NCBI RefSeq assembly: GCF_901827185.1
Contig: NZ_LR594671.1
Span: 5,388,001-5,452,000 of the forward strand
Source of the DNA: Variovorax sp. PBL-E5
GTDB taxonomy: Bacteria > Pseudomonadota > Gammaproteobacteria > Burkholderiales > Burkholderiaceae_C
Reading direction: 5' to 3'
Length of the DNA stretch: 64,000 nucleotides
Shown: positions 46,049 to 63,074 of the stretch, piece after piece
Position numbering within the stretch: position 1 is the stretch's first letter
Layout of the letters: every line of letters starts with the position of its first letter
Notes under the pieces: generated by a model
Seen by the model: only the letters and a program-made list of their open reading frames with translations
Database searches by the model: none
Told to the model about the DNA's origin: nothing
Position numbers and translations under genes: made by a program

Positions 46049-46049
46049 C

Positions 46050-47324
46050 TCAGACCCCGGCTGCGCGGCGACGGAACAGTCCGTGGTACTCCTTGCTGAG
46101 CGGCTCCTCCATCGAGTTGGACACCGCCATCGCCACCACGCTCTGGTCGTAGGCCGAGTGGCGCTCCTTCGAGAAGCTCATCTTGCCGTAGAGCCCGTCG
46201 ATCGCGCTCGCGCTGTCGAGCGCATTCTTGATCTGGTCGCTATCCCAGGACTTCGCCTTCTCGACGGCGTACTTGAGCGCATACAGGTAGTCGTAGAACG
46301 GCGTCGTGGCGGCGGGGCCGAGCAAGGCCTCGGACACGTCGTTGGCCAGCAACTTCTTGCAGAAGGCCTTCACGCGTTCCGGCGGCTGCTCGGTGTCGGT
46401 GTAGGTCAGCGAGCGGAAGGTGGCCGCATAGACGTCGTTGTAGCGCGCGCTGTCCGGAATCGCGCCCGGCGTGCCGGCGAACAGCAGCCCCGTGTGCCCG
46501 ACGATCAGGGGCTTCCAGTTCATGCGCGACAGGCCGACCAGCATCTGCGTGATGTCGACGTTGTTCGACACCTGGGCGTCGATCGCCTCGGCGCCGTCGC
46601 TGCGCAGCTTGCGCAGGAAGGGCGTCATGTCAGCGACCTTGATCGGGAAAATCTGCTCCGAGACGATCTGCATGCCGCGCGCGGGCAGCTCCTTCATCAT
46701 CGCGTCCTTCATCGAGACGCCGGCGGCCGAATCCTCGATCAGGAGGCCCACCTTCTTGATGCCGCGCTTTTGCAGCAGCTCCGCGTGCCGGTAGACCTGC
46801 GCCGCCGCGGTGAAGTTGAACTGGTAGTGGTAGGGAAAGCGCGTGCCGTCGCCCATTTCGGTCGCGGTTGCGTAGGCGGCCTGGATGACCTTGGCCGACG
46901 TCGACACCTCGAGCGAGGCCAGCGTCTGCGAACTGCCGATCGGCCCGACGATGATCTTCACGCCCTGATCGACCAGCTTGCGCGTCGCGATCGGCGATTG
47001 CGATGGATTCGCCTGGTCGTCGACCTCGACCTTGACCAGCTTGCGTCCCAGGATACCGCCCGCGGCGTTGATCTCGTCCATCGCGATCTGCCCGGCGAGG
47101 TAGAGCGGCCCGAAGCTGCTCGCGAGCGGCCCGGTGACCGGCTTGATCCATCCGATCTTCACGTCGTCGGTCTGCGCCGACGCGTGCAGCGGCAGCAGCG
47201 ACGTGCCGCTGACGAGGCCGCCGAGCGCGGAGGCCAGGACCGTGCGCCGGTTGACGCCCGAGGAAGTCGAGGAAGTCGAGGAAGTCGAGGAAGTCGAAAA
47301 AGAGGATGTCTGCTCAAAATTCAT
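46050..47324 (-). CDS. ABC transporter substrate-binding protein (Leu/Ile/Val-binding class)
   Basis: The 424-residue periplasmic protein captures the substrate for the importer encoded downstream. It opens MNFEQ and then four STS triplets coded by a 9-bp tandem repeat. A twin-arginine-like export signal follows (VNRRTVLASALGGLVSG...PLHASAQ). The mature part is type I periplasmic-binding: IGWIKPVTGPLASSFGPLYLAG, DEINAAGGILGRKLVKVEVDD, GPIGSSQTLA. A clear AAGGAG precedes ATG 47324. It heads the minus-strand operon and is divergent from a Crp/Fnr gene. Its mature sequence resembles that of the orphan binding protein at 60998. Confidence 0.93.
   Translation of the reverse strand: MNFEQTSSFSTSSTSSTSSTSSGVNRRTVLASALGGLVSGTSLLPLHASAQTDDVKIGWIKPVTGPLASSFGPLYLAGQIAMDEINAAGGILGRKLVKVEVDDQANPSQSPIATRKLVDQGVKIIVGPIGSSQTLASLEVSTSAKVIQAAYATATEMGDGTRFPYHYQFNFTAAAQVYRHAELLQKRGIKKVGLLIEDSAAGVSMKDAMMKELPARGMQIVSEQIFPIKVADMTPFLRKLRSDGAEAIDAQVSNNVDITQMLVGLSRMNWKPLIVGHTGLLFAGTPGAIPDSARYNDVYAATFRSLTYTDTEQPPERVKAFCKKLLANDVSEALLGPAATTPFYDYLYALKYAVEKAKSWDSDQIKNALDSASAIDGLYGKMSFSKERHSAYDQSVVAMAVSNSMEEPLSKEYHGLFRRRAAGV
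47260..47295. repeat. 9-bp tandem repeat in the binding-protein leader
   Basis: Four exact copies of GAGGAAGTC run in tandem. On the coding (minus) strand they encode four Ser-Thr-Ser triplets just ahead of the export signal. Gain or loss of a unit by slippage would keep the frame and change only the n-region length. Confidence 0.9.
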
Positions 47325-47429
47325 GTCTGTCTCCTTTTGATTTGTGTAGGCGGCTTGATTGCGTCGTGCGCGCCCATCGCCTCATGCATGCGAAGGTTGC
47401 CCGAACGGCGGCGCGGGAAATGTAAAGAG

Positions 47430-47457
47430 TTGACAATTTGCGGGCTTGTCCTAGGCT
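47430..47457 (+). promoter_or_regulatory. Putative sigma-70 promoter of the Crp/Fnr gene
   Basis: TTGACA (47430–47435) is a perfect -35 box, followed after 16 bp by TAGGCT (47452–47457) as a -10 box. Transcription would begin near 47464, about 3 bp before ATG 47467, leaving almost no leader. No ribosome binding site is visible; the bases before ATG are pyrimidine-rich (CTCCTCCTTCC). Confidence 0.5.
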
Positions 47458-47466
47458 CCTCCTTCC

Positions 47467-48138
47467 ATGAAAGTGCCAGCCAGTGTTCAGCGCAACGAAT
47501 GGTTCACGCGACTCGGCGCGGAACTCCAATCCGAGTTCATCCATCGCAGCGTCACGCGCCACTACGCGCTCGGAACCCTGATCTACGCCACGGGCTCGGC
47601 GCCCAACGGCTACCACATCGTGCTGCGCGGCGAGGTCCGGCTCGAACACTATGCAAAGAGCGGCAAGATCGCCTTCTACCAATCGCTGCGCCCGGGCGAC
47701 GGCTTCGGCCTCTTGTCCGAACTCGACAAATCCCCGCGCTTCAGCGACGCGCGCTCGTGGGGCGACACCAGCGTGATGCAGTTGCCGCACGAGGCGCTGC
47801 AGGACCTGTATCGCAAGAATGCGCAGGCGCGCGAGGCCTTCGTCGCGCTCATCTGCGCCAACCTGCACACCACACTCGGGATGCTGGTCGAATCGCACAG
47901 CGCGCCGCCGAAGGCGCAGATCGCCAGCATCCTGGTGGCGACCTTCAGCCGCCATGCCGACGACCCGCGCGGCCAGCCCAAGCTCACCCATGAGGCCGTG
48001 GCAGCCCTGGCGGGTGTGTCGCGTCCGACCGCAAGCAAGGTGCTCCATGAACTCCGTGACCTCGGATTGATCGCGTTGCAATACGGCAAGGTTTCCGTGC
48101 TCGACCTGGCCGGCCTCCAGAAGATCGGCGCCTCCTGA
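47467..48138 (+). CDS. Crp/Fnr family transcriptional regulator
   Basis: The 223-residue regulator has an N-terminal cyclic-nucleotide-binding-like domain (HYALGTLIYATGSAPNGYHIVLRGEVRLEHYAKSG; LRPGDGFGLLSEL). A dimer helix near residues 120–145 leads to a winged helix (LTHEAVAALAGVSRPTASKVLHELRDLGLI). No N-terminal cysteine cluster of the FNR oxygen-sensing kind is present, and the signal is unknown. It is divergent from the importer operon over 142 bp, so it may control it; no clear TGTGA-N6-TCACA or TTGAT-N4-ATCAA box was seen there. The gene converges with an SDR gene 9 bp away. Confidence 0.92.
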   Translation: MKVPASVQRNEWFTRLGAELQSEFIHRSVTRHYALGTLIYATGSAPNGYHIVLRGEVRLEHYAKSGKIAFYQSLRPGDGFGLLSELDKSPRFSDARSWGDTSVMQLPHEALQDLYRKNAQAREAFVALICANLHTTLGMLVESHSAPPKAQIASILVATFSRHADDPRGQPKLTHEAVAALAGVSRPTASKVLHELRDLGLIALQYGKVSVLDLAGLQKIGAS

Positions 48139-48147: not shown

Positions 48148-48930
48148 CTAGCGCGGCGGCATTCGGATCGCGCCGTCGAGCCGTATCGATTCGCCGTTCA
48201 GGTAGACGGTGGACACGATCATGTCCACCACCGCCGCAAATTCTTCCGGCTTTCCGAAACGTTTTGGAAAGGGCACCGATGCCGCCAGCGTCGCCTTGAC
48301 GTTCTCCGGCGCCGCCATCATCAGCGGCGTGGCGAAGATGCCCGGCAGGATGGTGTTCACACGGATGCCGTCGTTCATCAGGTCGCGGGCCACCGTCAGC
48401 GTCAGGCCGACGATGCCGGCCTTCGAGGCGGCATAGGCGGCCTGCCCGACCTGGCCGTCCTGGGCGGCCACGGAGGCGGTGTTGACGATCACGCCGCGCT
48501 CGCCGTCTTCCAGCGGCGCCAGCGTCAGCATGCCCGCCGCAGCCTTGGCCGTGCAGCGGAAGGTGCCCACCAGGTTGATCTGGATCAGCCGATCGAATTC
48601 CGCGATCGGGAAATGCTTCGGCGCGCCGGTCGCGCGATCGATGCTCGCGGTCTTGAACGCGTTGCCGATGCCGGCGCAGTTGACGAAGATGCGCTCCTGC
48701 CCGTGGGCCGCACGCGCCCGGCCGAAGGCGGCATCGACCTGTTCGTCCTGCGTCACGTCGACCCGGCAGAAGACGCCGCCGATCTCGCGCGCCAGCGACT
48801 CGCCGAGTTCGGCGTTCATGTCGAAGATCGAGACCTTCGCCCCCTTGCCCGCGAGCAGGTGCGCAGTCGCGGCGCCCAGACCGGACGCGCCACCGGTGAC
48901 GATGGCGGCGATGTCGGCATCGATGCGCAT
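48148..48930 (-). CDS. SDR family 3-hydroxyacyl-CoA dehydrogenase-like protein
   Basis: The 260-residue short-chain dehydrogenase has the cofactor motif TGGASGLGAA (12–21), NCAGIG (84–89) and the catalytic S153, Y166 and K170 (YAASK). Internal wording (FPIAEFDRLIQINLVGTF; GVIVNTASVAAQDGQVGQAAY; PFPKRFGKPEEFAAVV) matches type-2 3-hydroxyacyl-CoA dehydrogenases (HSD17B10-like). It is the last gene of the eleven-gene minus-strand operon, 10 bp after the thiolase, so oxidation of a 3-hydroxyacyl-CoA before thiolysis is likely. This duplicates a function of the FadB-like enzyme, perhaps for another chain length or stereochemistry. Confidence 0.92.
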   Translation of the reverse strand: MRIDADIAAIVTGGASGLGAATAHLLAGKGAKVSIFDMNAELGESLAREIGGVFCRVDVTQDEQVDAAFGRARAAHGQERIFVNCAGIGNAFKTASIDRATGAPKHFPIAEFDRLIQINLVGTFRCTAKAAAGMLTLAPLEDGERGVIVNTASVAAQDGQVGQAAYAASKAGIVGLTLTVARDLMNDGIRVNTILPGIFATPLMMAAPENVKATLAASVPFPKRFGKPEEFAAVVDMIVSTVYLNGESIRLDGAIRMPPR

Positions 48931-48940
48931 GGCGGCTTCC

Positions 48941-50119
48941 TCAGAGACGCTCGACGATGGTCACGTTCGCCATGCCGCCGCCTTCGCACATCGTCTGAAG
49001 CCCGAAGCGCTTGCCGCGCTGCCGCAGGGCGTTCAGCAGCGTGGTCATCAGCTTGGTGCCGGAGGCGCCCAGCGGATGACCGAGCGCGATCGCGCCGCCG
49101 TTCACGTTCAGCCGCGACGGGTCGGCACCGGTCGCCTGGAGCCAGGCCAGCGGCACGGGCGCGAAGGCCTCGTTGACCTCGTACAGGTCGATGTCGTCGA
49201 TCTTCATGCCGGCCTTCTGCAGGGCGCGCTGCGTCGCGGGGATCGGCGCCTCCAGCATGATCACCGGATCGTGCCCCATGACGCTCATGTGATGGATGCG
49301 GGCCAGCGGCTTCAGGCCCAGCGTCCTCAGGCCGCGCTCGTTGACGACCATCACGCCGCTGGCGCCGTCGCAGATCTGGCTGGCGGTGGCGGCGGTGACG
49401 CGTCCGCCCTCGGCGATCAGCTTGACGGAGGCGATGCTTTCGAGCGTCGCTTCGTAGCGGATGCCCTCGTCGGCAAGATGCATGTCGCCGGTCTCCGCGC
49501 CATCGGCCTGGCGCACGGCCACGGGCACGATCTCGTCCGTGAAGCGCCCCGCCTTCGTCGCCTCGATGGCGCGCCGGTGGCTCTGCAGGGCGAACTCGTC
49601 GAGTTGCAGCTTCGACAGGCCGTAGTTCTTCGCGATCATCTCCGCGCCGGTGAACTGGCTGAACTCGATGTCCGGATAGCGGCGCGCCATCGCCGGCCCG
49701 ACGTAGAAGCCCATGCCGTTCTTCAGCGGCAGGGTCGAGGGCATGCCCATGGGCACGCGCGTCATGCTTTCGACGCCGGACGCGATCACCACGTCCATCG
49801 TTCCCGACATGACGGCCTGCGCCGCGAAATGCAGCGCCTGCTGCGAGGAGCCGCATTGCCGGTCGATCGAGGTGCCGGGCACGCTCTCGGGCAGGCGCGA
49901 GGAAAGGACGGCGTTGCGGGCGATGTTGATGGCCTGCTCTCCGGCCTGATCCACGCAACCCATGATGACGTCGTCGACGGCGGCGGGATCGATGCCCGTC
50001 CGCTCGATCAAGGCATCGAGCACCTGGGCCGCCAGATCGGCCGGGTGCCAGCCGGCGAGCCTGCCGTTGCGGCGCCCCCCGGCCGTGCGCGCGGCCGCGA
50101 CGATGAAAGCTTCTGACAT
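48941..50119 (-). CDS. Acetyl-CoA acyltransferase (thiolase)
   Basis: The thiolase cleaves a 3-oxoacyl-CoA with CoA, the last step of a beta-oxidation turn. The 392-residue protein has the nucleophile C89 (DRQCGSSQQAL), NEAFAPVPLAW, H348 in GGAIALGHPLGASG, and C378 in CEGGGMAN. These are the normal catalytic residues and length. ATG 50119 was chosen (MSEAFIVAAARTAGGRRNGRLAGWHP); the frame continues upstream to 50176. It lies 106 bp after the MaoC-type gene, the widest gap in the operon. Confidence 0.94.
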   Translation of the reverse strand: MSEAFIVAAARTAGGRRNGRLAGWHPADLAAQVLDALIERTGIDPAAVDDVIMGCVDQAGEQAINIARNAVLSSRLPESVPGTSIDRQCGSSQQALHFAAQAVMSGTMDVVIASGVESMTRVPMGMPSTLPLKNGMGFYVGPAMARRYPDIEFSQFTGAEMIAKNYGLSKLQLDEFALQSHRRAIEATKAGRFTDEIVPVAVRQADGAETGDMHLADEGIRYEATLESIASVKLIAEGGRVTAATASQICDGASGVMVVNERGLRTLGLKPLARIHHMSVMGHDPVIMLEAPIPATQRALQKAGMKIDDIDLYEVNEAFAPVPLAWLQATGADPSRLNVNGGAIALGHPLGASGTKLMTTLLNALRQRGKRFGLQTMCEGGGMANVTIVERL

Positions 50120-50225
50120 GGTGAGATTCCCGTGTTCGATTCGATTCGCATCGATTGTTGGGATCGAAGGCCGCACGGGCTTCGTCGAATCGGACGATTT
50201 CGACGAAAAGGAAGCTCGTCGACCC

Positions 50226-51128
50226 TCAGGTCATCTCGGCGAAACCCAGGACGCCGCGGCTCAGCACGAGCTGGCCGGCATCGAGTTCGCGGGTCTCGAA
50301 GACGGCTTCGCCCGCCGCCCGGCGCCAGACGCGGGTTTCGAGCACCGCGCCCGGCTCGACCGCCGCGCTGAAGCGAACGCCCAGCCGAAGCAGCCGTGCC
50401 GGGTCGTCGCCGCACACATGGCGGATCAGGTCGAGCCCGATGCTGCCGAAGGTGCAGGCGCCATGCAGGATGGGGCGCGCGTAGCCCATGCGGCGCGCGA
50501 ATTCGGGATCGAGATGCAGTGGATTGAAATCCCCGCTGAGCCGATAGATCAGCGCGGCGCGGCGCGACAGCCGCGTCACGAAGCGCCAGTCGGGATCCCG
50601 TTCCAGCGCCGGCGTTGCGGCCGGGGACGCCGACCGGGCCGCAGCGGGCTCGACCGTGCCTGAAAAGCCACCGTTGCCGCGCAGCACATAGGAACCGCGC
50701 TCGACGGAAATGAGCCTGCCGTCCTCGGCATGCAGCAGCCGGCGTTCGTACTTCAGCACGGCGCCGGTCTGCGGCCCGCGATCGAGCAGGTCGCAGATGC
50801 GCGTCTCGGCCCTGACGACGCCGCCCGGCGGCAGTGCGCCATGCATCTCGATCGCGACTTCGCCGTGCAGCACGCGGGCCAGATCGATGCCGGTCCGCGG
50901 GTCGCGCAGGAAATCGCTGCCCTCGACACCGAGGATGATGGCCATGGTCGGCAGGACCCGGAGCTGCTTCTCGTAGACGTAGCGCAGCGCAGCGGCGTCG
51001 ACCTCGTTCGCCCCGGCACCGACGCCGACGCCGAGCGCGTAGAGCATGCAGTCGCGCGCCTCATAGCGATGCGAGACCACCTGCACCGGCAAGGCACGCA
51101 ACAGCTCGGCGTCGAGGCGCGGATTCAT
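50226..51128 (-). CDS. MaoC-type (R)-specific enoyl-CoA hydratase, double hot-dog
   Basis: The 300-residue protein has an N-terminal hot-dog half (YALGVGVGAGANEVD; LPTMAIILGVEGSDFL) and a C-terminal MaoC half. The latter carries the hydratase-2 motif YRLSGDFNPLHLDP with D200 and H205, followed by GYARPILHGACTFGSIG. This is the layout of eukaryotic-type hydratase 2, which makes (3R)-hydroxyacyl-CoA, the opposite isomer to that from crotonase-type hydratases. The start overlaps the upstream hydratase stop by 4 bp. Both hydratase kinds in one operon suggest a pathway with mixed stereochemistry or a branched substrate. Confidence 0.9.
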   Translation of the reverse strand: MNPRLDAELLRALPVQVVSHRYEARDCMLYALGVGVGAGANEVDAAALRYVYEKQLRVLPTMAIILGVEGSDFLRDPRTGIDLARVLHGEVAIEMHGALPPGGVVRAETRICDLLDRGPQTGAVLKYERRLLHAEDGRLISVERGSYVLRGNGGFSGTVEPAAARSASPAATPALERDPDWRFVTRLSRRAALIYRLSGDFNPLHLDPEFARRMGYARPILHGACTFGSIGLDLIRHVCGDDPARLLRLGVRFSAAVEPGAVLETRVWRRAAGEAVFETRELDAGQLVLSRGVLGFAEMT

Positions 51129-51923
51129 CGGCTCGGGAATCGCGGCGGACGTTTCTCGAAGAAGGCTTTCACGCCTTCCTGGAAGGTGTCGCGGTCGATC
51201 AATTCGTGCTGCCGCCGCGCCTCGTGGTCGAGCTGCGCCGCGAGATCGTTGTTCTGCGCGGCATCGAACGCACGGCGGATTTCCTGCACGCCCAGCGCCG
51301 GCAGCGCGGCCAGCCGGCGGGCCATGTCGAGCGCCTTGTCGGCCAGCTGGTCGTCGGCCACGCAGCAGGCGATCAGGCCCCACGCCTCGGCCTGCTCGGC
51401 GCCCAGCCGATCGCCGAGCAGCGCCAGCGCGGTGGCGCGCGCCCGGCCCAGCAGGCGCGAGGTGAACCAGGTGCTGCCGGCGTCCGGCACCAGGCCCAGC
51501 TTGGGCATGAAGGGAAGATAGAAGTAGGCGGAGCGCGCCGCGACCACGACATCCGCCGCCAGCGCCAGGCCCACGCCGGCGCCCGCGACCGCCCCCTGCA
51601 CCGCGCAGACCACCGGCACCGGGAGCTCGTGGATCTGCTGGACGATGGGGTTGGTCAACTCCCTCATCATGCGTTCGGTCTGGCCGCCGACGGTCTCGCC
51701 CGGCGCGGCCGTGCCGAGCGAGCCGAGGTCGGCGCCGACGCAGAAGGCCTTGCCGGCCGCCGACATCAGCACGGCCCGCACCGACACGTCGGCCCGCACC
51801 TTGCCCAGCGCGGCAAGCAGTTCGCGCTGCAGGTCGATGCTCAACGCGTTCAGGCGTGCCGCATCCGCGAGCACGATGCGCGCGATGCCGTCCTCGACCG
51901 CGTACTGGATCAGATTGCCTTCT

Positions 51924-51931
<8 letters not shown>
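51125..51931 (-). CDS. Enoyl-CoA isomerase/hydratase, PaaG-like
   Basis: The 268-residue crotonase-fold protein shows AFCVGADLGSLG (62–73), GAVAGAGVGLALAAD and a catalytic acid as D150 in LGLVPDAGSTWF. The first glutamate site is not conserved (Gly121 region). Loss of the first Glu with an Asp in VPDAG is the pattern of PaaG-type isomerases, which shift double bonds in ring-derived or unsaturated CoA esters. It overlaps neighbours on both sides, by 4 and 8 bp. Confidence 0.88.
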
Positions 51932-54065
<2,134 letters not shown>

Positions 54066-54104
54066 CGAGAATGTTCTTTCAGCATGAAACGTTGATGCGG
54101 CCGT

Positions 54105-54887
54105 TCATCGGCCGGTCCAGCGGGGCGGACGTTTTTCCACGAAGGCGCGCGAGCCCTCGATCGCATCCGCGCTGGCGCCGATGCGATCCCACAGTTCCGC
54201 GGACAGGCCGCGCATCGCGTCGGCATCCGTCTCCATCGCCAGCCGCGCCACGCGCAGGCTTTCGCGCACCGCGAGCGGCGCGTTGGCCGCGATGCGGCGC
54301 GCCAGTTCCAGGGCCCGCGCGATGGCCTGCCCGGCCGGCGCGAGCGCGTTCAGCAGGCCGAGCTCGAAGGCCCTGCGCGCATCGATCTCGCTGCCGGTGA
54401 GGATCAGTTCGATGGCCACGCGCGCAGGCAGCGACTGGACCAGCCGATAGAGCCCGCCGCCGGCCGCCGCGAGTCCGCGCGTGACCTCCGGCAGGCCGAG
54501 CGCCGCGCCTTCCTCGGCCACGATCAGGTCGCAGGCCAGCGCGATCTCGCAGCCGCCTGCCAGCGCCCTGCCGTTGAGCGCGGCGATCCAGGGCTTGCGC
54601 CGCGGCGCGTGGACGAAGCCGGCGAAGCCGTTGCCGTCGCGCAGCTGCGAGGCCCGGCCGGCGGCGACTTCCTTCAGGTCGGCACCGGCGCTGAACACAC
54701 TGCCGGCACCGGTCAGCACGACGGCCCGCACGTCGTCGTCTGCATCGAGCGCAGTCACCGCGCGGCCGAGCGCGGCCACGACCGCGCCGTTGATGGCGTT
54801 GCGCGCGGCCGGCCGATTGAGCGTGACGAGCGCGACATGCCCCGGCAGGCGTTCGCAAAGCACGGCCGATGTGTCGGATTCAGTCAT
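54105..54887 (-). CDS. Enoyl-CoA hydratase
   Basis: The 260-residue crotonase-fold protein keeps both catalytic glutamates with the normal spacing: E114 (GRALAGGCEIALACD) and E134 (ALGLPEVTRG). The oxyanion-hole segment is VFSAGADLKEV (64–74). It is thus a standard enoyl-CoA hydratase. ATG 54887 (MTESDTSAVL) overlaps the acyl-CoA dehydrogenase stop by 8 bp; an in-frame GTG/ATG slightly upstream is less likely. Gap to the FadB-like gene is 39 bp. Confidence 0.9.
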   Translation of the reverse strand: MTESDTSAVLCERLPGHVALVTLNRPAARNAINGAVVAALGRAVTALDADDDVRAVVLTGAGSVFSAGADLKEVAAGRASQLRDGNGFAGFVHAPRRKPWIAALNGRALAGGCEIALACDLIVAEEGAALGLPEVTRGLAAAGGGLYRLVQSLPARVAIELILTGSEIDARRAFELGLLNALAPAGQAIARALELARRIAANAPLAVRESLRVARLAMETDADAMRGLSAELWDRIGASADAIEGSRAFVEKRPPRWTGR

Positions 54888-57279
54888 CGTTCGTGTCCGC
54901 AAAGCGCGCCGCGTGGTGATGGGCGTTGCCCCATTCGACCTCGAAGGCGTGCAGCCGCTTGAAGAGGCGGCCGATCTCGCACTCCTGCGTCATGCCGATG
55001 CCGCCGTGCAGCTGGACCGACTGGCTGCGCACGAAGAAGGCCGCGCGGCCGATGCGCGACTTGGCGGCGGACACGATGCGCTCGCGCGAGGGCATGGCGG
55101 GCTCGCGGCTTTCGAGCGCCGCGACCGCGCGCCGCAGCATCGCGCGCGACAAGGCCAGCTCGCCGTACATCTCCGCCATGCGATGCTGCAGCGCCTGGAA
55201 GCTGGCGAGCGGCGCACCGAACTGCCGTCGCGTCTGCAGGTAGTCGAGCGTCGATCCGAAGAGCGTCTCCATGGTGCCGACGGCCTGGGCGCAGGCCATC
55301 ACGATGGCGCGCAGGATCGCCTCGTCGATGTGCAACGCGGCAGCATCGCCGGACGCGATCAGCGCATCGCTTGCAAGTTCGACGCGCTCGAAGCTCAGAT
55401 CGGCGACCACCTGCCCGTCGACGCTGCGATAGTGGCGCGCCTTCAGGCCGGGCACGCCGGCGGGGACCAGGAAGAGCGCGACCGGCGCGGCGGCGTCGGC
55501 CGCGCCCGTGATCGACCTCGCCGGCACGATGAAGAAATCTGCCATCGCGCCGCCCATGACCGCGCATTTGGCGCCGTCGAGAACGAAGCCGTCACGCATC
55601 GCAGCGGCCCGGGTCGCGACGCTGCGTGCGCCCGGCGCGCCGCCGTCCTCGGCCTCGAGGTGCGCGAAAGCAAAAACCTGCGCGCCCGACACCAGGCGCT
55701 CCAGCGCTTCGCGGCGGCGCTCCGACGGCCACTCGGCCGTTGCAAGCAAATGAGCAACGGATACGCAGCACGAACCGAGCGGTTCCGCCACGCCGCCACG
55801 CCCCAGCGCGGCCATGACCACCGCAAGATCGTCGAGCGAACCGCCCTGCCCGCCCACGGCTTCGTCGATGCCGAGCCCGAGGAAGCCGGTGTCCGCCAGT
55901 TGCAGCCAGCGCCGCCGCGCCAGGCTCGCATCGCCCTTCTCGAAGTCGCGCCACGGCGTTTCGCGCCATTGGGCAGCAAAGCGCTCGGCGCTCTGCTGCA
56001 TCTGCGCCTGGTCCTCGGAGACCGGGCTGGCGATGGCCTGCCTGCCGCCGAACAGCAGCTTGGCGATGATGTTCTTCTGGATCTCGGTCGAGCCGCCGTA
56101 GATGGTCGCGGCGCGCCGGAACAGGTATTCGGCGAGTACCCCCGGCGCATCCGGCGCGTCCCCCAGGCCACGCAGCCAGCGCTCGCCGGCCTCGCCCACG
56201 CTTTCGTGCGGGAAGAAGGCCGCACCATGGGCGCCCAGCGATTCGACTTGCAGTTCGAGCAGGCCCTGAATGAGTTCGGTGCCGTGGATCTTCAGCGCCG
56301 AGGGCGTGAGCGGGCTGTGGTCGTCGAGTTCGATGGTGCCGACCGCGGCCGACTCCAATGCGATCAGATCGATCTCCAGGCGCGCCATCCGCTGCCGGAA
56401 CACGGGCTCGTCGTACAGGCGCACACCGTGCCTCGAAGGCGAAGGCGCGTTCTTCGCCATCGCCTTCAACGCGGCGAGGTAGCGCTTGTTGCGCGGCACG
56501 TCGGCGGTGGTCACCCGTTCGTTGCCGAGCAGGAACTTGGCATAGTCCCAGCCGCGCCCTTCCTCGCCGACCAGGTTCTGCACCGGCACGCGGACGTCGT
56601 CGAGGAAGACCTCGCACAGGCTCTCGCCCTCGTCGATCGACTGGATGGGGCGCACCCGCACGCCGGGCGATCGCATCGGGATCAGCAGGAAGGAGATGCC
56701 GAGCTGCGCCTTGGCCTGGGTGTCGGTGCGCACCAGGCAGAACAGCATGTCGGCCATGAAGGCCTGCGAGGTCCAGATCTTCTGGCCGTTGACCACGTAG
56801 ACGGCGCCCTCGCCCTCGCCCTCGCGCACGGCGCGCGTGCGCAGCGACGCGAGATCGGAGCCCGAGCCGGGCTCCGAGAAGCCCTGCGCCCAGAACTCGC
56901 GGCCCTCCCGGATCGGCGCCAGGTAGCGCGCCTGTTGCGCCTGGGTGCCGAAGGTGTAGATCACCGGCCCGACCAGCGACACGCCCTGGATGTTGTTGGG
57001 CGGCGCGCCCGCCAGCATCAGTTCTTCCTCGAACAGGTAGCGCTGCATGCCGGACCATCCGGGCCCGCCATGCGCCTCGGGCCAATGCGGCACCGACCAG
57101 CCCGCACGCGACAGGATCGCGGTGATGCCCAGCATGTCCTCGCGCGAGGGATGCACGTCGCGCCGGCCCCGCGCGGCCATGTCGGGCGGCAGGTGTTCAC
57201 CGAGATAGGCCCGGATCCCGGCCACGAAACCGGCGTGGCTCCGTGCGCTCAGGTCGGCCTGCCGCTCACTCCGGGACAT
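54880..57279 (-). CDS. Double acyl-CoA dehydrogenase (two ACAD domains fused)
   Basis: The 799-residue protein is about twice normal ACAD length. The first domain, residues ~1–400, has FSEPGSGSDLASLRTRAV, YVVNGQKIWTSQAFMAD and ATIYGGSTEIQKNIIAKLLFG. The second, from ~415 on, has a weaker N-terminal part (FLGLGIDEAVGGQGGSLDDLA; FVLDGAKCAVMGGAMADF) and a good C-terminal bundle (TLDYLQTRRQFGAPLASFQALQHRMAEMY; SVQLHGGIGMTQECEIG). The arrangement looks like the PimC (large) and PimD (small) dehydrogenase subunits joined in one chain. PimCD acts on dicarboxyl- or ring-derived CoA esters, and heterodimeric ACADs are known in steroid degradation. One domain may have lost flavin. Its first 14 bp overlap the upstream monooxygenase gene. 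Confidence 0.88.
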   Translation of the reverse strand: MSRSERQADLSARSHAGFVAGIRAYLGEHLPPDMAARGRRDVHPSREDMLGITAILSRAGWSVPHWPEAHGGPGWSGMQRYLFEEELMLAGAPPNNIQGVSLVGPVIYTFGTQAQQARYLAPIREGREFWAQGFSEPGSGSDLASLRTRAVREGEGEGAVYVVNGQKIWTSQAFMADMLFCLVRTDTQAKAQLGISFLLIPMRSPGVRVRPIQSIDEGESLCEVFLDDVRVPVQNLVGEEGRGWDYAKFLLGNERVTTADVPRNKRYLAALKAMAKNAPSPSRHGVRLYDEPVFRQRMARLEIDLIALESAAVGTIELDDHSPLTPSALKIHGTELIQGLLELQVESLGAHGAAFFPHESVGEAGERWLRGLGDAPDAPGVLAEYLFRRAATIYGGSTEIQKNIIAKLLFGGRQAIASPVSEDQAQMQQSAERFAAQWRETPWRDFEKGDASLARRRWLQLADTGFLGLGIDEAVGGQGGSLDDLAVVMAALGRGGVAEPLGSCCVSVAHLLATAEWPSERRREALERLVSGAQVFAFAHLEAEDGGAPGARSVATRAAAMRDGFVLDGAKCAVMGGAMADFFIVPARSITGAADAAAPVALFLVPAGVPGLKARHYRSVDGQVVADLSFERVELASDALIASGDAAALHIDEAILRAIVMACAQAVGTMETLFGSTLDYLQTRRQFGAPLASFQALQHRMAEMYGELALSRAMLRRAVAALESREPAMPSRERIVSAAKSRIGRAAFFVRSQSVQLHGGIGMTQECEIGRLFKRLHAFEVEWGNAHHHAARFADTNDD

Positions 57280-58681
57280 CCGCGCCGGCCGCGCTCAGTG
57301 CCCGCTTCTTGGCCTGGTCCATGTTGTACGAGCGGCGCATCATGACGCGCTGCGCCGGCAATCCGCCGCCCGCCTGCAGCGCCACGACGAACTGCCAGCC
57401 GCCATAGGCGTCGGCGGTAAGGTCGCGGATCAGGTTGTAGACGCGCATGCGCGTCTCCACGTTCACGCCGGCCTTGGTGTAGAGGTACTTGCGGATGTAC
57501 TTGCCCGACTCCTCGTTGCGCAGGTCGGCTTCGAGCGGCAGCGTGAGCACGAGCCCGCCGCCGAGGTCGTGCAGATAGCGCACCGTCTGGTGGTAGTTGG
57601 CCGCGTAGTAGTACTTGGCGGCGTTGATGGCCAGCGTATTGGGAAACACCATGCCCGAGGGCGTCTTCTCGTAGTGCCGGCAGGCAAAGTCCAGCGACAT
57701 GCGCAGCATCTCGGCATAGGCGATGAGTTCGGCGACCGAGTTCTGCGTGACCGGATCCGAGTCCTTGCCCTGCATCTCGTTGACCAGCTGCGCCAGGCCG
57801 ACGAAGAGTTCCGACAGCCGCACCGCCTCGACCATGCCGCCGGTTCGTTCCCACAGGCCGAGCGACTGCGCCAGCTTGCCCGCGAGTTCGACCTCGCCCG
57901 CCAGGAACACGCGGTCCCAGGGCACGAAGACGTCGTCGAACACCACGAAGCCCTCGGGCATGCCGTGATGCGAACTGGCCGGATAGTCGAAGGGATTGAG
58001 GTCCGGCCCGGCGACGCTGCGATTGATGATCTTGACGCCGGGCGCGTTGACCGGGATCGAGAACGACACTGCGTAGTCGGTCTCCTCGGCCTTCATGCCC
58101 TTGGTCGGCATGACCACCAGCTCGTGCACCAGCGAGGCGGCCGTGATGTGCAGCTTGGCGCCGCGCACCACGATGCCGTCCTTGCGCCGCTCGACGATGC
58201 GCAGGTACAGGTCGGGGTCGTCCTGCTGCGCGGCGCTGCGCTTGCGGTCGCCCTTCGGATCGGTGATGACCTCGGCCGCGCGCAGGTCGTTGTCGCGGCA
58301 GTAGCGGTACATGCGCTCGATGTTGGCGCCGTACATCGGGTTGACCTTCTCGACCGCGTCCTTGACGCTCATCAGCGCCATGTACACGCCGGTGACCAGC
58401 GTGCCGATCGAGGTGTGGTTCATCATCTCGACGCGGGTGTTGAGATCGGCCTCGTCGCGCGGGATCTGGAAGATGCGGTGCGCCACCGCGCCGTCCTCGG
58501 TCTGGTACTGGCGCAGCGCGCCGTACTTCGGATCGTCGTAGCGGTAGTCGGCCTTGACCGAGTCGATCGGCATCCTAAAGCGCGGATGGGTCGTGATGTC
58601 GTCGATGCGCTCGCCGTCCCAGTAGGTGACGCGGCCGTCGCGCAGGCTTTCCACGTATTGCTCAGGCGTCTTGAGTGGCAT
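57266..58681 (-). CDS. HpaB-like flavin-dependent monooxygenase (4-hydroxyphenylacetate 3-hydroxylase family)
   Basis: The 471-residue protein belongs to the HpaB/HpaH family of reduced-flavin monooxygenases. It has TPEQYVESLRDGRVTYWDGE (5–24), MNHTSIGTLVTGVYMALM, YCRDNDLRAAEVITDPKGDR (127–146), ITAASLVHELVVMPTKGM and ASSHHGMPEGFVVFDDVFVPWDRVF. The fold is shared with 4-hydroxybutyryl-CoA dehydratase, but only two cysteines (C128, C334) are present, so the iron–sulfur ligands of that enzyme are missing. An FMN reductase gene in the same operon can supply reduced flavin. The ligase just upstream suggests the substrate may be a CoA ester or its free acid. ATG 58681 gives MPLKTPEQY. Confidence 0.88.
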   Translation of the reverse strand: MPLKTPEQYVESLRDGRVTYWDGERIDDITTHPRFRMPIDSVKADYRYDDPKYGALRQYQTEDGAVAHRIFQIPRDEADLNTRVEMMNHTSIGTLVTGVYMALMSVKDAVEKVNPMYGANIERMYRYCRDNDLRAAEVITDPKGDRKRSAAQQDDPDLYLRIVERRKDGIVVRGAKLHITAASLVHELVVMPTKGMKAEETDYAVSFSIPVNAPGVKIINRSVAGPDLNPFDYPASSHHGMPEGFVVFDDVFVPWDRVFLAGEVELAGKLAQSLGLWERTGGMVEAVRLSELFVGLAQLVNEMQGKDSDPVTQNSVAELIAYAEMLRMSLDFACRHYEKTPSGMVFPNTLAINAAKYYYAANYHQTVRYLHDLGGGLVLTLPLEADLRNEESGKYIRKYLYTKAGVNVETRMRVYNLIRDLTADAYGGWQFVVALQAGGGLPAQRVMMRRSYNMDQAKKRALSAAGADVPE

Positions 58682-58723
58682 TCGGTTTTCCTTTGGTCTC
58701 AGTTTTTCGAAGGTTGACTGGCA

Positions 58724-58744
58724 GGGCCTCGCGCTTCGAGGCCC
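58724..58744. other. Stem-loop between ligase and monooxygenase genes
   Basis: GGGCCTCG and CGAGGCCC form a perfect 8-bp stem with a 5-base loop (CGCTT) in the 68-bp gap inside the eleven-gene operon. No T-run follows on the minus strand, so it is not a classical terminator. It could stabilise or mark a processing point in the mRNA. Confidence 0.5.
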
Positions 58745-58749
58745 GGGCT

Positions 58750-60351
58750 TCAGATCAGCTTGCTGCTGCGCCCTTCCCAGTGGGGCTTGCGCAGCGCGGG
58801 CTTGTCGATTTTTCCGGCGCCGGAAAGCGGCAGCGATTCGGTACGGATGTCGAAGGAGCGCGGGCACTTGTACTTGGCGATGCGCGTCTGGCAATGCGCC
58901 AGCAGCGCCGCCTCCTCGATCACGATGCCCGGCGACGGGCAGATCACCGCATGCACCGCCTCGCCCCATTTCTCGTCGGGCACGCCGATCACGCTGCATT
59001 GGGCGATGCCCGGATAGGCGTAGATGGTGGCTTCGACCTCGGCCGAGTAGACGTTCTCGCCGCCCGCGATGATCATGTCCTTCAGGCGGTCGACGATGTG
59101 GAAGATGCCCAGCTCGTCCATGTAGCCGAGATCGCCGGTGTGCAGCCAGCCGTTGCGCAGCGTCTGCGCGGTCAGCTCGGGGTTGTTCCAGTAGCCCTTC
59201 ATCACCAGCGGTCCGCGGACCACGATCTCGCCGGTGCGCCCCGGCGGCAGCTTGTTCTCTTCGGCGTCGACCACGGCCATCTCGCAGGCGATGAGCGAAC
59301 GGCCGATCGAGTTGGCCTTGCCGAGCGCCCAGTTCTCCGGCCGCGTGTAGTAAGGCGGCAGCGACGAGACGCTGGCGGTCGATTCGGTCATGCCGTAGCA
59401 CGGCGTGAAGCGCGCATCCGCGAGGTATTCGCGTGCCTCGAGCACCAGCGCCTCGGGCATCGGCGAGGAACCGTAGAGGATGGTCTTCATGGTCGACAGC
59501 TTCCGGCGCCGCATGTCGGGATGGTCGATCATCATCCGCAGCATGGTGGGCACGCAGGTCATGACCGTGATGCCGTGGGTCTCGATCGATTCCAGCACCT
59601 TGGCCGGCTCGAAGCGCGGCACCATGACGATGCAGCCCAGCGCATGCAGCACCGGCAGGCACAGCCCGGCGGCACCCACGTGGAAGAGCGGCGACATGAT
59701 CATCGCGATCGACTGGTCGGTCAGGCCGATCTGCGCGGCGAAGGCCAGCGAGCTGCACAGCAGGTTGGAATGCGTGTGCATGACGCCCTTGGGCCGGCCC
59801 GTGCTGCCGCTCGTGTAGAAGAGGCACACCACGTCCTCGCTGTCGGCGACCGGATCGTGCGCCGGATCGAGCGGCGTCGCACGGGCGATCGCGTCCTCGT
59901 AGTCGCGCATGCCGGACGGCGTCGGCGACGGCCCGATGAAGAGCACGTGCTGCATCGGGCGGAGTTCGAGCACCTGCTTGGCGAGCTGGAGGTTCTCGGC
60001 GTCGACGATCAGGATGCGGGTGTCCGAATCGGCCAGGATGGCGGCCAGCTCGGTCGGCGCCAGCCGGAAATTCAGCGGCACGAAGATGCCGCCCGCGCAG
60101 GGCACGCCGAAGTAGAACTCGATGTACTGGTGGCAGTTGTTGGCCAGCATGGCCACGCGGTCGCCCGGTCGCATGCCGAGCGACTGGAGCGCAGCGCCCA
60201 GGCGGCGGCTGCGGTCGCCGAGCTGGTTCCAGGTCAGCGAAGCCGACGCGTCGACGACGGCGACCTTGTCCCCCACCGTCTGGCAGGCCCGCCGGAAGGC
60301 CTGCGTGAAACTGAAGGCACGCGCCCCCGATTCCGATGCACTCGCAACCAT
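58750..60351 (-). CDS. Acyl-CoA ligase (AMP-binding, FadD-like)
   Basis: The 533-residue ANL enzyme should activate a free acid to its CoA ester. It has the adenylate loop LFYTSGSTGRPKGVMHTHSN, YGMTESTASVSSLPP, GWLHTGDLGYMDELGIFHIVDRLKDMIIAGGENVYSAEVE and the catalytic lysine segment LPLSGAGKIDKPALRK. This is the medium/long-chain or aryl acid FadD-like group, distinct from the two CaiC-like ligases at 17986 and 24361. ATG 60351 (MVASASESG) lies 29 bp after the FMN reductase gene. It probably provides the entry step for the operon's pathway. Confidence 0.92.
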   Translation of the reverse strand: MVASASESGARAFSFTQAFRRACQTVGDKVAVVDASASLTWNQLGDRSRRLGAALQSLGMRPGDRVAMLANNCHQYIEFYFGVPCAGGIFVPLNFRLAPTELAAILADSDTRILIVDAENLQLAKQVLELRPMQHVLFIGPSPTPSGMRDYEDAIARATPLDPAHDPVADSEDVVCLFYTSGSTGRPKGVMHTHSNLLCSSLAFAAQIGLTDQSIAMIMSPLFHVGAAGLCLPVLHALGCIVMVPRFEPAKVLESIETHGITVMTCVPTMLRMMIDHPDMRRRKLSTMKTILYGSSPMPEALVLEAREYLADARFTPCYGMTESTASVSSLPPYYTRPENWALGKANSIGRSLIACEMAVVDAEENKLPPGRTGEIVVRGPLVMKGYWNNPELTAQTLRNGWLHTGDLGYMDELGIFHIVDRLKDMIIAGGENVYSAEVEATIYAYPGIAQCSVIGVPDEKWGEAVHAVICPSPGIVIEEAALLAHCQTRIAKYKCPRSFDIRTESLPLSGAGKIDKPALRKPHWEGRSSKLI

Positions 60352-60380
60352 CTTCCTGTCTCCATCTTTTTTTGTGAAAG

Positions 60381-60968
60381 CTAGCCGAGCATCTCGGCAC
60401 AAGGCTCCATGCGGACGTACATCGCGCCGAACTCGCAGACCTGGCGCGCGACCAGTTCGAGCTGCTGCTGAACGGCGGCGTTGGTGCAGCGGCCTTCTTC
60501 GTCGAACGCGAGGTCGACCGAGTTGATGCCGGCCGCGGCGGGCGTCGGCCAGCCGCGCAGGGCGTGCACGATGCAGCGCACCGCGACGATGGTGGTGCCG
60601 ATCGCCTGCGAGCCGTAGGCGCAGACGATGCTGCCGACGGCACGGCCCTCCAGATAGGGCCGCTCGTCGCCGCGCAGTTCCTCGACGTAGTCGAGCGCGT
60701 TCTTCACCATCCCCGAGATCGAGCCGTGATAGCCGGGCGACGCCAGCAGCACGCCGTCGCTGCGCCGGATCGCCTCGATCAGCCGCCCGGCCTTTTCGCC
60801 GGGCGGCTGGCCGGTGTACATGGGCAGGTCGAGGTCGGCACCTGCGAACAGTTCCGTGCGGGCGCCGAGCCGACGGGCGTGCGCCAGGCTGGCGCGCAGC
60901 GCGAGTTCGGTCGACGAGTTGTCCCGGCCGGTGCCGCCGATGCCGACGATGTACGGTTTCCTGACCAT
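60381..60968 (-). CDS. NADPH-dependent FMN reductase family protein
   Basis: The 195-residue flavodoxin-like protein begins VRKPYIVGIGGTGRDNSSTELALR, the phosphate-binding loop of this family, and has LLASPGYHGSISGMVKNALDYVEEL, the flavin-contacting segment. Such reductases deliver reduced FMN or FAD to a separate monooxygenase. The HpaB-like gene two places downstream is the obvious partner, making a two-component system. The C-terminal tail (FDEEGRCTNAAVQQQLELVARQVCEFGAMY) is also usual for the family. Confidence 0.9.
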   Translation of the reverse strand: MVRKPYIVGIGGTGRDNSSTELALRASLAHARRLGARTELFAGADLDLPMYTGQPPGEKAGRLIEAIRRSDGVLLASPGYHGSISGMVKNALDYVEELRGDERPYLEGRAVGSIVCAYGSQAIGTTIVAVRCIVHALRGWPTPAAAGINSVDLAFDEEGRCTNAAVQQQLELVARQVCEFGAMYVRMEPCAEMLG

Positions 60969-60997
60969 GCCCTTGCTCCGGTTGGATGTGGCGACGC

Positions 60998-62239
60998 TCA
61001 GGCGCCCGGCGCACGCAGCCGCAGCGCGCCCAGCTCCTTCGATCGCGGGTCGCGGCTCGAGGCCACGCTGGAGACGGTGATGTCGTTCAGCGACAGGCCG
61101 CCATGCTCGGTCTCGGAGAAACTCAGCGTGCCGATCGCGCCCTTGTAGCCGCGCGTCGCGTTGAAGGCCTTGCGCACCACGTCGACGTCGAAACTCTTTT
61201 CCTGCTCGATCACCTGCTTGAGCAGATGCAGGAAGTCGTAGTGCGGCGTGCCAGCCACGTAGGCCTCGATGCCCTTCACGCCGGACGCCGCCTGCAGCTT
61301 CTTGGCCAGCGCGATGTTCCTGTCCGAGGCGGGCGCGCTGTCGCTGTAGGTCCAGTTGCGGTAGTAGACGCCGTAGACCGAGCGCAGGCTCTGTTCCGGC
61401 ACCAGGTCGAACAGCGAGTCGTTGAACAGGTTGACGTGGCCGAGGATCGGCGGGATCCAGCTCATCTTCGCCATCGCCGAGAAGGCCATGCTGATGTGCA
61501 CGTTGCTGGACATCCAGACGATCACGCCTTCGCAGCCCGCCTTCTGCAGCGCCTGCACCTGCGTCGTGAGGTCGGTCGCGCTCATCAGGTAGGTCTGCGC
61601 GGACACCGCATCGACGCCCGTGAGTTCCTTGATCTTGCGCTGCGACGCGGCCGCGGCCGATTCGCCGAAGGGCGTCACCTCGCTCAGGATACCGATCTTG
61701 CGGATCTTGAGCTGGTTGACCATGTACTGCGCCGCGACCTGCCCTTCCTGCGCCGTGGTGTAGACGCACAGGAAGTGATAGGGATACTTGGTGCCGTTGG
61801 CCATGTCCTCGCCGTTCGAGATGCAGGTCTGGATCATCCTGGACTGGGTGCCGGTGGCCAGCGCCGAGAGCGACTGCGCCGAGCCCGTCGGCCCCACGAC
61901 ATAGTCGATGCCCGCCGACTTGAGCTTGCGCATGACGGCCGGCTCCTTCGCCGGCGAGGCCTCGTCGTCTTCCTCGACGATGGTGAGCTTGCGGCCCATG
62001 ATGCCGCCGGCCGCGTTGATCTCGTCGATGGCGATCAGGCCGCCGGCATAGAGCGGCGCGAACGAGCTGGCGAGCTTGCCGGTGGTCGGGCGAATCCAGC
62101 CGATGCGGAATTCATCCGCCTGCGCGAACGCGCGCAAGGGCGCCAGCGATGACGCCGCGATGGCCACCGCGGCACCGCCGGCCGCGCGCAACACGCGACG
62201 CCGGCTCTGCAGATGGGTGGGAAGGTTGCTGGGTTGCAT
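60998..62239 (-). CDS. ABC transporter substrate-binding protein (Leu/Ile/Val-binding class), orphan
   Basis: The 413-residue periplasmic protein has a twin-arginine-like signal (QSRRRVLRAAGGAAVAIAASS...RAFAQ). The mature part is type I periplasmic-binding (FRIGWIRPTTGKLASSFAPLYAGG; DEINAAGGIMGRKLTIVEEDD; GPTGSAQSLSALA). It closely parallels the binding protein at 46050 over this region. It heads the eleven-gene operon, but no permease or ATPase gene lies nearby, so it may share the importer at 42.6–46.0 kb. GGACGGAG precedes ATG 62239. Confidence 0.92.
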   Translation of the reverse strand: MQPSNLPTHLQSRRRVLRAAGGAAVAIAASSLAPLRAFAQADEFRIGWIRPTTGKLASSFAPLYAGGLIAIDEINAAGGIMGRKLTIVEEDDEASPAKEPAVMRKLKSAGIDYVVGPTGSAQSLSALATGTQSRMIQTCISNGEDMANGTKYPYHFLCVYTTAQEGQVAAQYMVNQLKIRKIGILSEVTPFGESAAAASQRKIKELTGVDAVSAQTYLMSATDLTTQVQALQKAGCEGVIVWMSSNVHISMAFSAMAKMSWIPPILGHVNLFNDSLFDLVPEQSLRSVYGVYYRNWTYSDSAPASDRNIALAKKLQAASGVKGIEAYVAGTPHYDFLHLLKQVIEQEKSFDVDVVRKAFNATRGYKGAIGTLSFSETEHGGLSLNDITVSSVASSRDPRSKELGALRLRAPGA

Positions 62240-62269
62240 GTCTCCGTCCTTTCGATGTTTTGTGGGAAT

Positions 62270-62298
62270 AGCATAAGGTATGTTATGGAACAGCGCAA
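62270..62298 (-). promoter_or_regulatory. Putative sigma-70 promoter of the eleven-gene operon
   Basis: On the minus strand TTGCGC (62298–62293) and TATGCT (62275–62270) are separated by exactly 17 bp, matching -35 and -10 boxes. The start of transcription would fall near 62263, some 24 bp before ATG 62239. The palindrome at 62272–62287 covers the -10 box and part of the spacer, which suits repression. Confidence 0.6.
62272..62287. promoter_or_regulatory. Putative TetR operator, site 1
   Basis: CATAAGGTATGTTATG has the form CATAA-N6-TTATG, with perfectly matching 5-bp arms. It overlaps the -10 region of the operon promoter reading left. The second copy lies 39 bp away, centre to centre. Recognition by the adjacent TetR protein is inferred. 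Confidence 0.75.
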
Positions 62299-62310
62299 TG
62301 CCGGATCGAA

Positions 62311-62326
62311 CATAAGTTGAGTTATG
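62311..62326. promoter_or_regulatory. Putative TetR operator, site 2
   Basis: CATAAGTTGAGTTATG repeats the CATAA-N6-TTATG form with a different 6-base centre, showing that the arms are what is conserved. On the plus strand its right arm runs into TATGCT (62323–62328), a possible -10 box for the tetR gene, as at site 1 on the other strand. This points to autoregulation. Confidence 0.72.
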
Positions 62327-62366: not shown

Positions 62367-63074
62367 ATGCGCGGCGTCGTCCGGAAAGACCAATCCCTCC
62401 AGCCGGTTTCGCCGAGGAAGCCCGCGGCCCAGCGCGCCGTGCCGGCCAAGTCCGCCACGGCGCGGCGGTCGGCCGAATCGCCGGAAAGCAATGCGGGCGG
62501 CAGACTCAGCCGAGCGCACTGGATCGACGCGGGCGAAGCGGTGCTGTGCGAGTCCGGCATCACCGGCGTCAAGCTCGCGACCCTGACCGAGCGGCTCGGC
62601 GTGTCGATCGGCAGCTTCTATCACCACTTCACGAGCTTCGAGCACTATCTGGGCGAGCTGGCCGACAACTACAGCGTCGAGCGCGTGCGCCACGAACTCG
62701 AACTGGCCAGCGCGGGCGATCTTTCGCCGCTCGACCGCATCCAGCGCCTGCGCACCGTCAGCAACCAGCTGGGCACCTTCGAACTCGACCGCGCGATGCG
62801 CGTGTGGGCGACCATCGACCCGCGCGCCGAGAAGACACTGCGCAAGGCCGAAACCCTCGTGCTCGCCTTTCTTCGCCAGGCCTTCTGCGAGATGGGCTTC
62901 GCCGAGGCCGATGCCCTGCTCCGGGCCCGCATCCTCCTGTCGGTGAATGTCGTTGCCGTCGGCAAGGCGGAATCGAAGACCCATGCCACCTACCTGCGCG
63001 ACGTGCTGCATCTGCTCGCCGAGGAGACGCCGCGGCCATCGACCCCGAAGGCGTCGAAGCCACCGCGCCGATAG
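62367..63074 (+). CDS. TetR family transcriptional regulator
   Basis: The 235-residue regulator has a basic, probably disordered N-terminal tail of about 45 residues, then the TetR helix-turn-helix at ~52–95 (WIDAGEAVLCESGITGVKLATLTERLGVSIGSFYHHFTSFEHYLGEL). A helical ligand domain follows (DRIQRLRTVSNQLGTFELDRAMRVWATIDPRAEK; LRKAETLVLAFLRQAFCEMGF). It is divergent from the eleven-gene operon, with two identical-type palindromes between them. It most likely represses that operon and itself until an acid or acyl-CoA binds. ATG 62367 is the first start after the operators, so the long tail may be genuine. Confidence 0.92.
   Translation: MRGVVRKDQSLQPVSPRKPAAQRAVPAKSATARRSAESPESNAGGRLSRAHWIDAGEAVLCESGITGVKLATLTERLGVSIGSFYHHFTSFEHYLGELADNYSVERVRHELELASAGDLSPLDRIQRLRTVSNQLGTFELDRAMRVWATIDPRAEKTLRKAETLVLAFLRQAFCEMGFAEADALLRARILLSVNVVAVGKAESKTHATYLRDVLHLLAEETPRPSTPKASKPPRR

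Follow-up and report, generated by a model that had tools for sequence, protein, structure and literature searches.

A TetR-associated operon of Variovorax sp. PBL-E5 combining a flavoprotein of a predicted cluster-free AbfD branch, an FMN reductase gene and acyl-CoA catabolic genes

AbfD and vinylacetyl-CoA isomerase (6vjr), both of solved structure, are among the closest described relatives of a flavoprotein encoded in an eleven-gene operon of Variovorax sp. PBL-E5, the subject of this study. The operon occupies the minus strand at 48148-62239 of a 64,000-nucleotide stretch of contig NZ_LR594671.1 (positions 5,388,001 to 5,452,000), which we call the window and whose numbering is used throughout. 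As their names indicate, both solved proteins act on coenzyme A (CoA) thioesters. In AbfD the [4Fe-4S] cluster has C99, C103, H292 and C299 as its ligands (letters present in the two solved rows of our alignment), and Y296, K300 and E455 are catalytic. To our knowledge, neither an AbfD/HpaB-type protein, nor a flavin mononucleotide (FMN) reductase, nor a MaoC protein is part of the pim or paa CoA pathways, to which other genes of the operon bear some likeness. The second well-known relative is the HpaB component of 4-hydroxyphenylacetate 3-hydroxylase (HpaB/HpaC), for which PMC10816480 gives a substrate triad R100-Y104-H142 and suggests that Arg100 of TtHpaB may help to form and stabilise hydroperoxyflavin. 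That a flavoenzyme can bring O2 to bear on a CoA thioester has a precedent in TdaE, presented in PMC8283759 as a dioxygenase acting on a CoA ester; unlike the protein considered here, it resembles acyl-CoA dehydrogenases (ACADs) and belongs to tropone biosynthesis.

The explanation that we favour, with a probability of roughly 0.4, is that the locus is a TetR-controlled operon for acid catabolism, in which the flavoprotein would oxygenate a substrate at the level of the CoA thioester with flavin reduced by the FMN reductase. The case rests on the position of the flavoprotein in its family, its active-site residues, the genes that accompany it at related loci, and a regulator gene with an adjacent palindrome.

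In a single-sequence search the best solved relatives of the flavoprotein are nearly tied, AbfD scoring 197.5 bits and TtHpaB 195.7 bits. A profile of the clade, made from 17 close relatives, matches AbfD best (223.6 bits), followed by vinylacetyl-CoA isomerase (205.4 bits) and TtHpaB (198.4 bits); the first two matches extend over nearly the full length. A TDPKGDR stretch and a C-terminal AQR region are also common to AbfD and the window's flavoprotein. In a midpoint-rooted tree of 73 rows, which contains long branches and from which L032, L033 and L034 were excluded as fragments and L036 left out, the 32-row window clade and 13 AbfD-side rows form a 45-row branch with a Shimodaira-Hasegawa-like approximate likelihood ratio support of 99. 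Approximately unbiased tests reject the joining of the window clade to either of two hydroxylase groups (p 0.0023 and p 7e-11); the tests covered groups of 7 and 4 rows, and a third set, of 17 rows, lay outside them. By sequence, then, the flavoprotein is placed on the AbfD side of the family, in a predicted cluster-free branch apart from the tested hydroxylase groups.

Two other members of the family were seen along the way. A 43% identical paralogue in Bradyrhizobium contains similar SLGLWER and PTK text and has as neighbours a ligase, a gene that looks by eye like a TetR, a Liv set and a ketoacyl synthase. The PBL-E5 genome itself (G000) encodes a second AbfD-like protein (L001, G000:C1:2053906-2055315), 31% identical to the window's flavoprotein, which retains C99 and H292 and in the alignment carries Tyr at 103 and Ala at 299, a signature that recurs in ten relatives drawn from the same genus, family and order.

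The window clade departs from both sets of active-site residues. At the AbfD cluster-ligand columns all 32 clade rows read gap, gap, Glu, and then Glu, Gly, Asp or Ala. The ligand loop contains no Cys in the 21 of 32 clade rows where a script located it, its alignment being uncertain because of a deletion there. Y296, K300 and E455 of AbfD are absent as well, and the window gene differs from that of AbfD in adjoining beta-oxidation genes. With respect to TtHpaB, H142 is replaced by E137 in every clade row and S197-T198 by T193-K194, while the Y104 column holds Leu, Ala or Gly in the multiple alignment and is filled by Y100 in a pairwise one. Acidic residues, E137 and E278, stand in all 32 rows at positions where TtHpaB or AbfD carry His. 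Judged from these alignments, the clade has an active-site signature of its own and is an uncharacterised branch that lacks the main residues of both of its best-known relatives. Close relatives of the flavoprotein are named either '4-hydroxyphenylacetate 3-hydroxylase' or '4-hydroxybutyryl-CoA dehydratase' in their source records, and because of the active-site residues neither name is safe.

The genes around the flavoprotein were compared at 35 loci located by exact peptide patterns, a reach confined to close relatives, and the counts are lower bounds because contig ends cut several of the loci. A match to the double ACAD (48-65% identical) lies directly downstream of the flavoprotein gene in 10 of the 35, and a relative of the acyl-CoA ligase (49-67%) directly upstream in eight; the FMN reductase is present in six, and relatives of the binding protein LivK1 (59-61%) in three (L006, L027 and L028). 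The conserved core, as read from these neighbourhoods, is a binding protein, FMN reductase, ligase, flavoprotein and double ACAD. FadB, MaoC and thiolase have no relative at E <= 1e-10 in the 35 stretches, where the nearest crotonase matches are 30-32% identical and the nearest short-chain dehydrogenase (SDR) 48% (L034). Kin of FadB (60-63%) and of the SDR (72%) are instead found in another catabolic cluster of three genus mates, one of which also has kin of the thiolase (83%). With none of the six genes, the two crotonases included, represented by close relatives at the related loci, and with kin of three of them in genus mates, the operon looks composite, consisting of the core module with local beta-oxidation genes, and the six look like a local add-on. 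The complete beta-oxidation set announced in the preliminary description is present here, but close relatives of its six genes are not seen at the related loci.

The FMN reductase appears to be tied to one type of locus. All three operon-type genomes have relatives 58-66% identical to it (G425, one of the three, has a solo copy of the flavoprotein gene too), as against none, at E <= 1e-15, in the six solo-only genomes, a contrast that speaks for a functional link in the operon type. Its gene lies upstream of that of the flavoprotein and on the same strand, either directly or with only the ligase between, in the window, L005, L027, L028, L033 and L034.

Some features of individual loci are recorded here for completeness. 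The flavoprotein gene of L034 in Chelatococcus (10001-11405) matches in two pieces in different frames, and the same genome has an uninterrupted solo copy (L008). A carboxyltransferase follows the solo-type flavoprotein gene in L010, L013 and L014, and beyond the TetR gene in L011, L013 and L014 are genes for a ketoacyl synthase and a ligase. The neighbours were also considered as pointers to the substrate; they include an epoxide hydrolase (L009 and L012), an FMO-like protein (L012), NMO-family proteins (L005 and two Chelatococcus loci), ketoacyl synthase, MaoC and glutathione S-transferase (GST), and are suggestive but inconsistent.

Divergent from the operon is a gene for a TetR-family regulator (62367-63074, plus strand; TetR_N 28.2 bits, cut-off 24), whose start codon is uncertain, the homology spanning about 62493-63033. 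Between it and LivK1 lies a 19-bp palindrome, ATAGCATAAGGTATGTTAT (62268-62286), which we regard as a putative TetR operator. A pattern fitted to this palindrome and its relatives gave no matches in 100 shuffles of the window. A weaker second copy with four mismatches is found at 62307-62325, a level at which chance alone would give about 0.4 over the 36 sources as a whole (the window plus 35 related loci). The divergent promoter region of the operon holds both the regulator gene and the palindromic site, neither of which figured in the preliminary description, and the two probably control the operon, with binding and repression as the presumed mode.

Relatives of the window's TetR were detected by phmmer in 12 of the 35 related loci, with 172 bits to that of L010. 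Nine open reading frames (ORFs) from near flavoprotein genes at other loci were compared with it, and eight are 43-57% identical. The TetR_N cut-off is passed by five of seven neighbouring ORFs, that of L028 falling just below (21.4 bits) and that of L008 giving no match. The L008 ORF (9264-9830), which adjoins a palindrome and was the ninth compared, was rejected as a regulator, neither Pfam nor BLAST identifying it as a TetR.

Related loci carry the palindrome as well. Fifteen sites with at most two mismatches were found in 11 of the 36 sources, compared with none in five shuffles, and 10 of the 13 sources that have a TetR relative have such a site; the count is not an independent one, because the pattern was derived from some of those same sites. 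L006 has sites before the TetR gene and LivK1, before the flavoprotein gene, between the reductase and binding protein genes, and between the reductase gene and one for a luciferase-like monooxygenase. The search was extended to ten whole genomes, where a backward control gives 0-3 matches per strand at three mismatches, and for this reason weak sites are not counted as real. The window's genome has one good palindrome, that of the operon promoter region, and a single stray site that differs at three positions. Eight places have the palindrome in G425, the genome from Chelatococcus, with none in the control: one at the solo flavoprotein gene (L008), two at L128, a locus of the operon type (one at TetR/FMN reductase, the other at a binding protein), and the others before an unlinked ligase gene whose product scores 643 bits to the window's ligase (L123), before NMO-family genes (L124, and L127 with a GST), before a binding protein gene (L125), and before a run of genes for MaoC, a ligase and a Liv set, with a ketoacyl synthase adjoining (L126). 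The operon loci of G424 and G430 have four and three palindrome places. The solo genomes G426, G427 and G428 have a one-mismatch palindrome at the flavoprotein gene and only three-mismatch sites elsewhere, and no palindrome was found by the whole-genome search in G429, G431 and G432.

A pathway can be proposed from these elements. LivK1 would capture an organic acid, whose entry would probably be through a LivH/LivMG/LivF permease encoded just beyond the window, and the ligase would convert the acid to its CoA thioester. The flavoprotein, of the predicted cluster-free AbfD branch, would then alter the thioester, most probably as an oxygenase that the FMN reductase supplies with reduced flavin, after which the double ACAD, hydratases, dehydrogenases and thiolase would complete beta-oxidation. 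TetR, probably sensing an acid or an acyl-CoA, would keep the operon off when bound to the palindrome. We infer a CoA-thioester substrate because the solved branch mates use such substrates and because the gene sits between those of the ligase and the ACAD. The FMN reductase travels with this type of operon, which leaves room for an oxygenation step.

Several observations weigh against this explanation. The Arg of the R100 column is absent from all 32 clade rows and carried by all 41 other rows. Reductase-free solo copies, which can be up to 80% identical to the window's flavoprotein, indicate that the protein can exist without the reductase and may need none or use another, and no FMN reductase was seen in the L009 or L012 stretches. 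In L006 the reductase gene lies about 7 kb away, back to back with the gene for a luciferase-like monooxygenase of the NtaA/DmoA family, with a palindrome common to both; because of this arrangement the L006 reductase may serve that monooxygenase. Finally, L005, L016 and L033, which carry a TetR gene, show only sites with three to five mismatches.

The strongest alternative is that the flavoprotein is a redox-neutral acyl-CoA enzyme (a double-bond isomerase, dehydratase or similar) working with bound flavin and a carboxylate base and no cluster, the FMN reductase being otherwise employed. Its placement with AbfD would suit such an enzyme, as would the loss of the Arg linked to hydroperoxyflavin, the conserved E137 and E278 at His positions, and the lack of the reductase from all six solo-only genomes. 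However, the AbfD residues presumed to be catalytic are missing too, and the reductase gene is beside or near that of the flavoprotein in six sources including the window. We consider a redox-neutral reaction a serious contender, though less likely than not, and oxygenation our first choice over it.

It is also conceivable, but unlikely, that an unlinked luciferase-like monooxygenase is what the FMN reductase supplies, the flavoprotein handling only the product of that enzyme. The arrangement in L006 with its common palindrome speaks for this, and contig C3 of the window's genome encodes a 70% identical luciferase-like protein. On the other hand, proteins at least 70% identical to that of L006 are present in nine of the ten genomes searched, a count that takes in the query's own source, whether or not the genome has this operon type, so that the luciferase-like protein does not track the reductase and was rejected as a constant partner; nor is there a palindrome with up to four mismatches in the 16-18 kb around the luciferase-like gene in G000, G425 and G430. 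Among the chosen proteins scanned with Pfam, luciferase-like monooxygenases were identified in L006, L009 and L034, those of L006 and L034 belonging to different families, and L016 has a weak relative (91 bits).

Least probable of all is a two-component monooxygenase of the HpaB type that hydroxylates an aryl or alicyclic free acid prior to CoA activation, for although the protein passes the cut-offs of PF11794 and PF03241, is nearly as close to TtHpaB as to AbfD in a single-sequence search, and has a flavin reductase in its operon, it falls far below both equivalog cut-offs (HpaB-1, 231 vs 480 bits; HpaB-2, 143 vs 885 bits), lacks R100 and H142, is rejected from the two tested hydroxylase groups, and is accompanied by a reductase not reported as HpaC-type. 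That reductase gives PF03358 only (Pfam, E <= 0.001), with the ArsH, MsuE and SsuE models below cut-off (NCBIfam). The preliminary description had proposed a two-component flavin monooxygenase of the HpaB kind, which is not supported as stated; the term HpaB-like holds for the Pfam domains and fails on the triad, equivalog scores, tree and reductase.

The PimC- and PimD-like ACAD halves, PaaG-like crotonase, FadB and thiolase recall the pim and paa pathways, but the listed pim and paa models all score below cut-off (PimC equivalog, 353 of 624 bits; PimD, 254 of 653; PaaG, 232 of 345). The isoflavone (ifc) cluster of Variovorax was considered and rejected: in PMC11069340 IfcA is described as an NADPH-linked, flavin adenine dinucleotide-binding monooxygenase, and the main text contains neither 'acyl-CoA' nor 'ligase'. 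No match to the gene set was found in open-licence PMC papers, in keeping with the earlier statement that no described pathway with it was known. The operon is well organised and probably regulated as a unit, and we regard it as a variant not described before, not as a system of a new kind.

By its distribution the operon is accessory. At E <= 1e-100 the flavoprotein was found in only one of 369 sampled genomes of the class, the window's own. Among 25 genomes of the genus, that of the window included, no other long match exceeds 32% identity, and stretches of about 35 residues reach 47-50%. Similarly, of 195 genomes from the genus of G430, only G430 has the flavoprotein at this threshold. Relatives within the clade, 64-87% identical, come mostly from Alpha- and Betaproteobacteria, and also from less closely named Proteobacteria and one metagenome-assembled genome of Myxococcota. 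Such a patchy distribution fits horizontal transfer, by which the operon was probably acquired.

All eleven genes were confirmed from ORFs, Pfam matches and start positions. The first encodes LivK1, a periplasmic Liv-type binding protein (60998-62239; PF13458, Peripla_BP_6, 151 bits), and is followed by genes for the NAD(P)H:FMN reductase-like protein of 195 aa (60381-60968; PF03358, FMN_red), the AMP-forming acyl-CoA ligase of 533 aa (58750-60351; PF00501, 306 bits; NF004837, 507.5 bits, cut-off 476), the AbfD/HpaB-superfamily flavoprotein of 471 aa (57266-58681; HpaB_N and HpaB) and the fused double ACAD of 799 aa with PimC-like and PimD-like halves (54880-57279). The last has no internal stop, whereas in most full-length genus-mate matches the alignment runs across a stop that separates two genes; an unbroken frame is also seen in at least two further full-length matches, one of them in the window's own genome. 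Next come a first crotonase of the enoyl-CoA hydratase (ECH) type (54105-54887; Pfam and NCBIfam), a FadB-type multifunctional protein (ECH+3HCDH; 51924-54065; NF008727, 911 bits, cut-off 870), a second ECH crotonase (51125-51931; nearest models PRK05981 and PaaG, both below cut-off), a double hot-dog (MFE-2/MaoC) hydratase of 300 aa (50226-51128; Pfam), a thiolase of 392 aa (48941-50119; NF005077, 754 bits, cut-off 590) and, last, the SDR (48148-48930; Pfam), for which no model exceeds its cut-off among the best 25 of 179 matches. The ten intergenic gaps measure, in order of transcription, 29, 29, 68, -14, -8, 39, -8, -4, 106 and 10 bp, a range of -14 to 106 bp that bears out the mostly short gaps and overlaps noted earlier, and this spacing suggests co-transcription. 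GC at third codon positions is 0.86-0.93 across all eleven genes. Scans for sigma-70 promoters and intrinsic terminators gave no more matches than in shuffles. The 3' end of the operon faces a convergent Crp/Fnr-type gene (47467-48138, plus strand).

The preliminary description had uptake, activation and beta-oxidation in one unit. Gene content agrees, except that uptake is represented by the binding protein only; no permease gene accompanies LivK1 in the operon. The best candidate is probably the LivH/LivMG/LivF set L129 (G000:C1:5453.3-5456.7 kb), about 3 kb upstream of LivK1 and beyond the window edge. Permease genes come after the LivK1 relative in L006; their identity is 59-64% to the L129 set and 43-47% to the set inside the window (42572-46048), which was set aside as the mate of LivK1. 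Two genes with likeness to 2-hydroxyacid dehydrogenases lie between L129 and the TetR gene, one of the FMN type (PRK11197, 359 bits, cut-off 376) and one of the D-2-hydroxyacid kind; these neighbours may point, as a hint and no more, to 2-hydroxy or 2-oxo acids. The region has a D-2-hydroxyacid dehydrogenase-like gene on either side, at 41586-42575 and at 63086-64000, the latter continuing outside the window, where it adjoins the FMN-type gene.

Elsewhere in the window, the second Liv set (binding protein, LivH, fused LivM-LivG and LivF) lies beside the Crp/Fnr-type regulator (42572-48138). Further acyl-CoA genes occur at 8200-28999, namely crotonase and carboxyltransferase-like genes (8.2-12.6 kb), an ACAD, a carboxyltransferase and a ligase (20.5-26.1 kb), and a FadB (26.8-29.0 kb). 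There are also a large LuxR/MalT-type regulator of 907 aa (36584-39307) and an enolase-superfamily sugar-acid dehydratase-like gene (39341-40453) with no NCBIfam model above cut-off.

Finally, we raise, as a tentative and rather doubtful possibility, that a cluster-free branch of the AbfD family has turned to O2, oxygenating acyl-CoA thioesters with reduced flavin, in a dedicated TetR regulon spread horizontally. If true, flavin would do here what diiron does in the CoA-ester epoxidases of aerobic 'hybrid' pathways. A conserved clade with a new active-site signature, recurring partners and a readable putative operator offers a concrete way into a step of acid degradation that has yet to be described, and bears on how a family of radical iron-sulphur flavoproteins could lose its cluster, or not yet have it.

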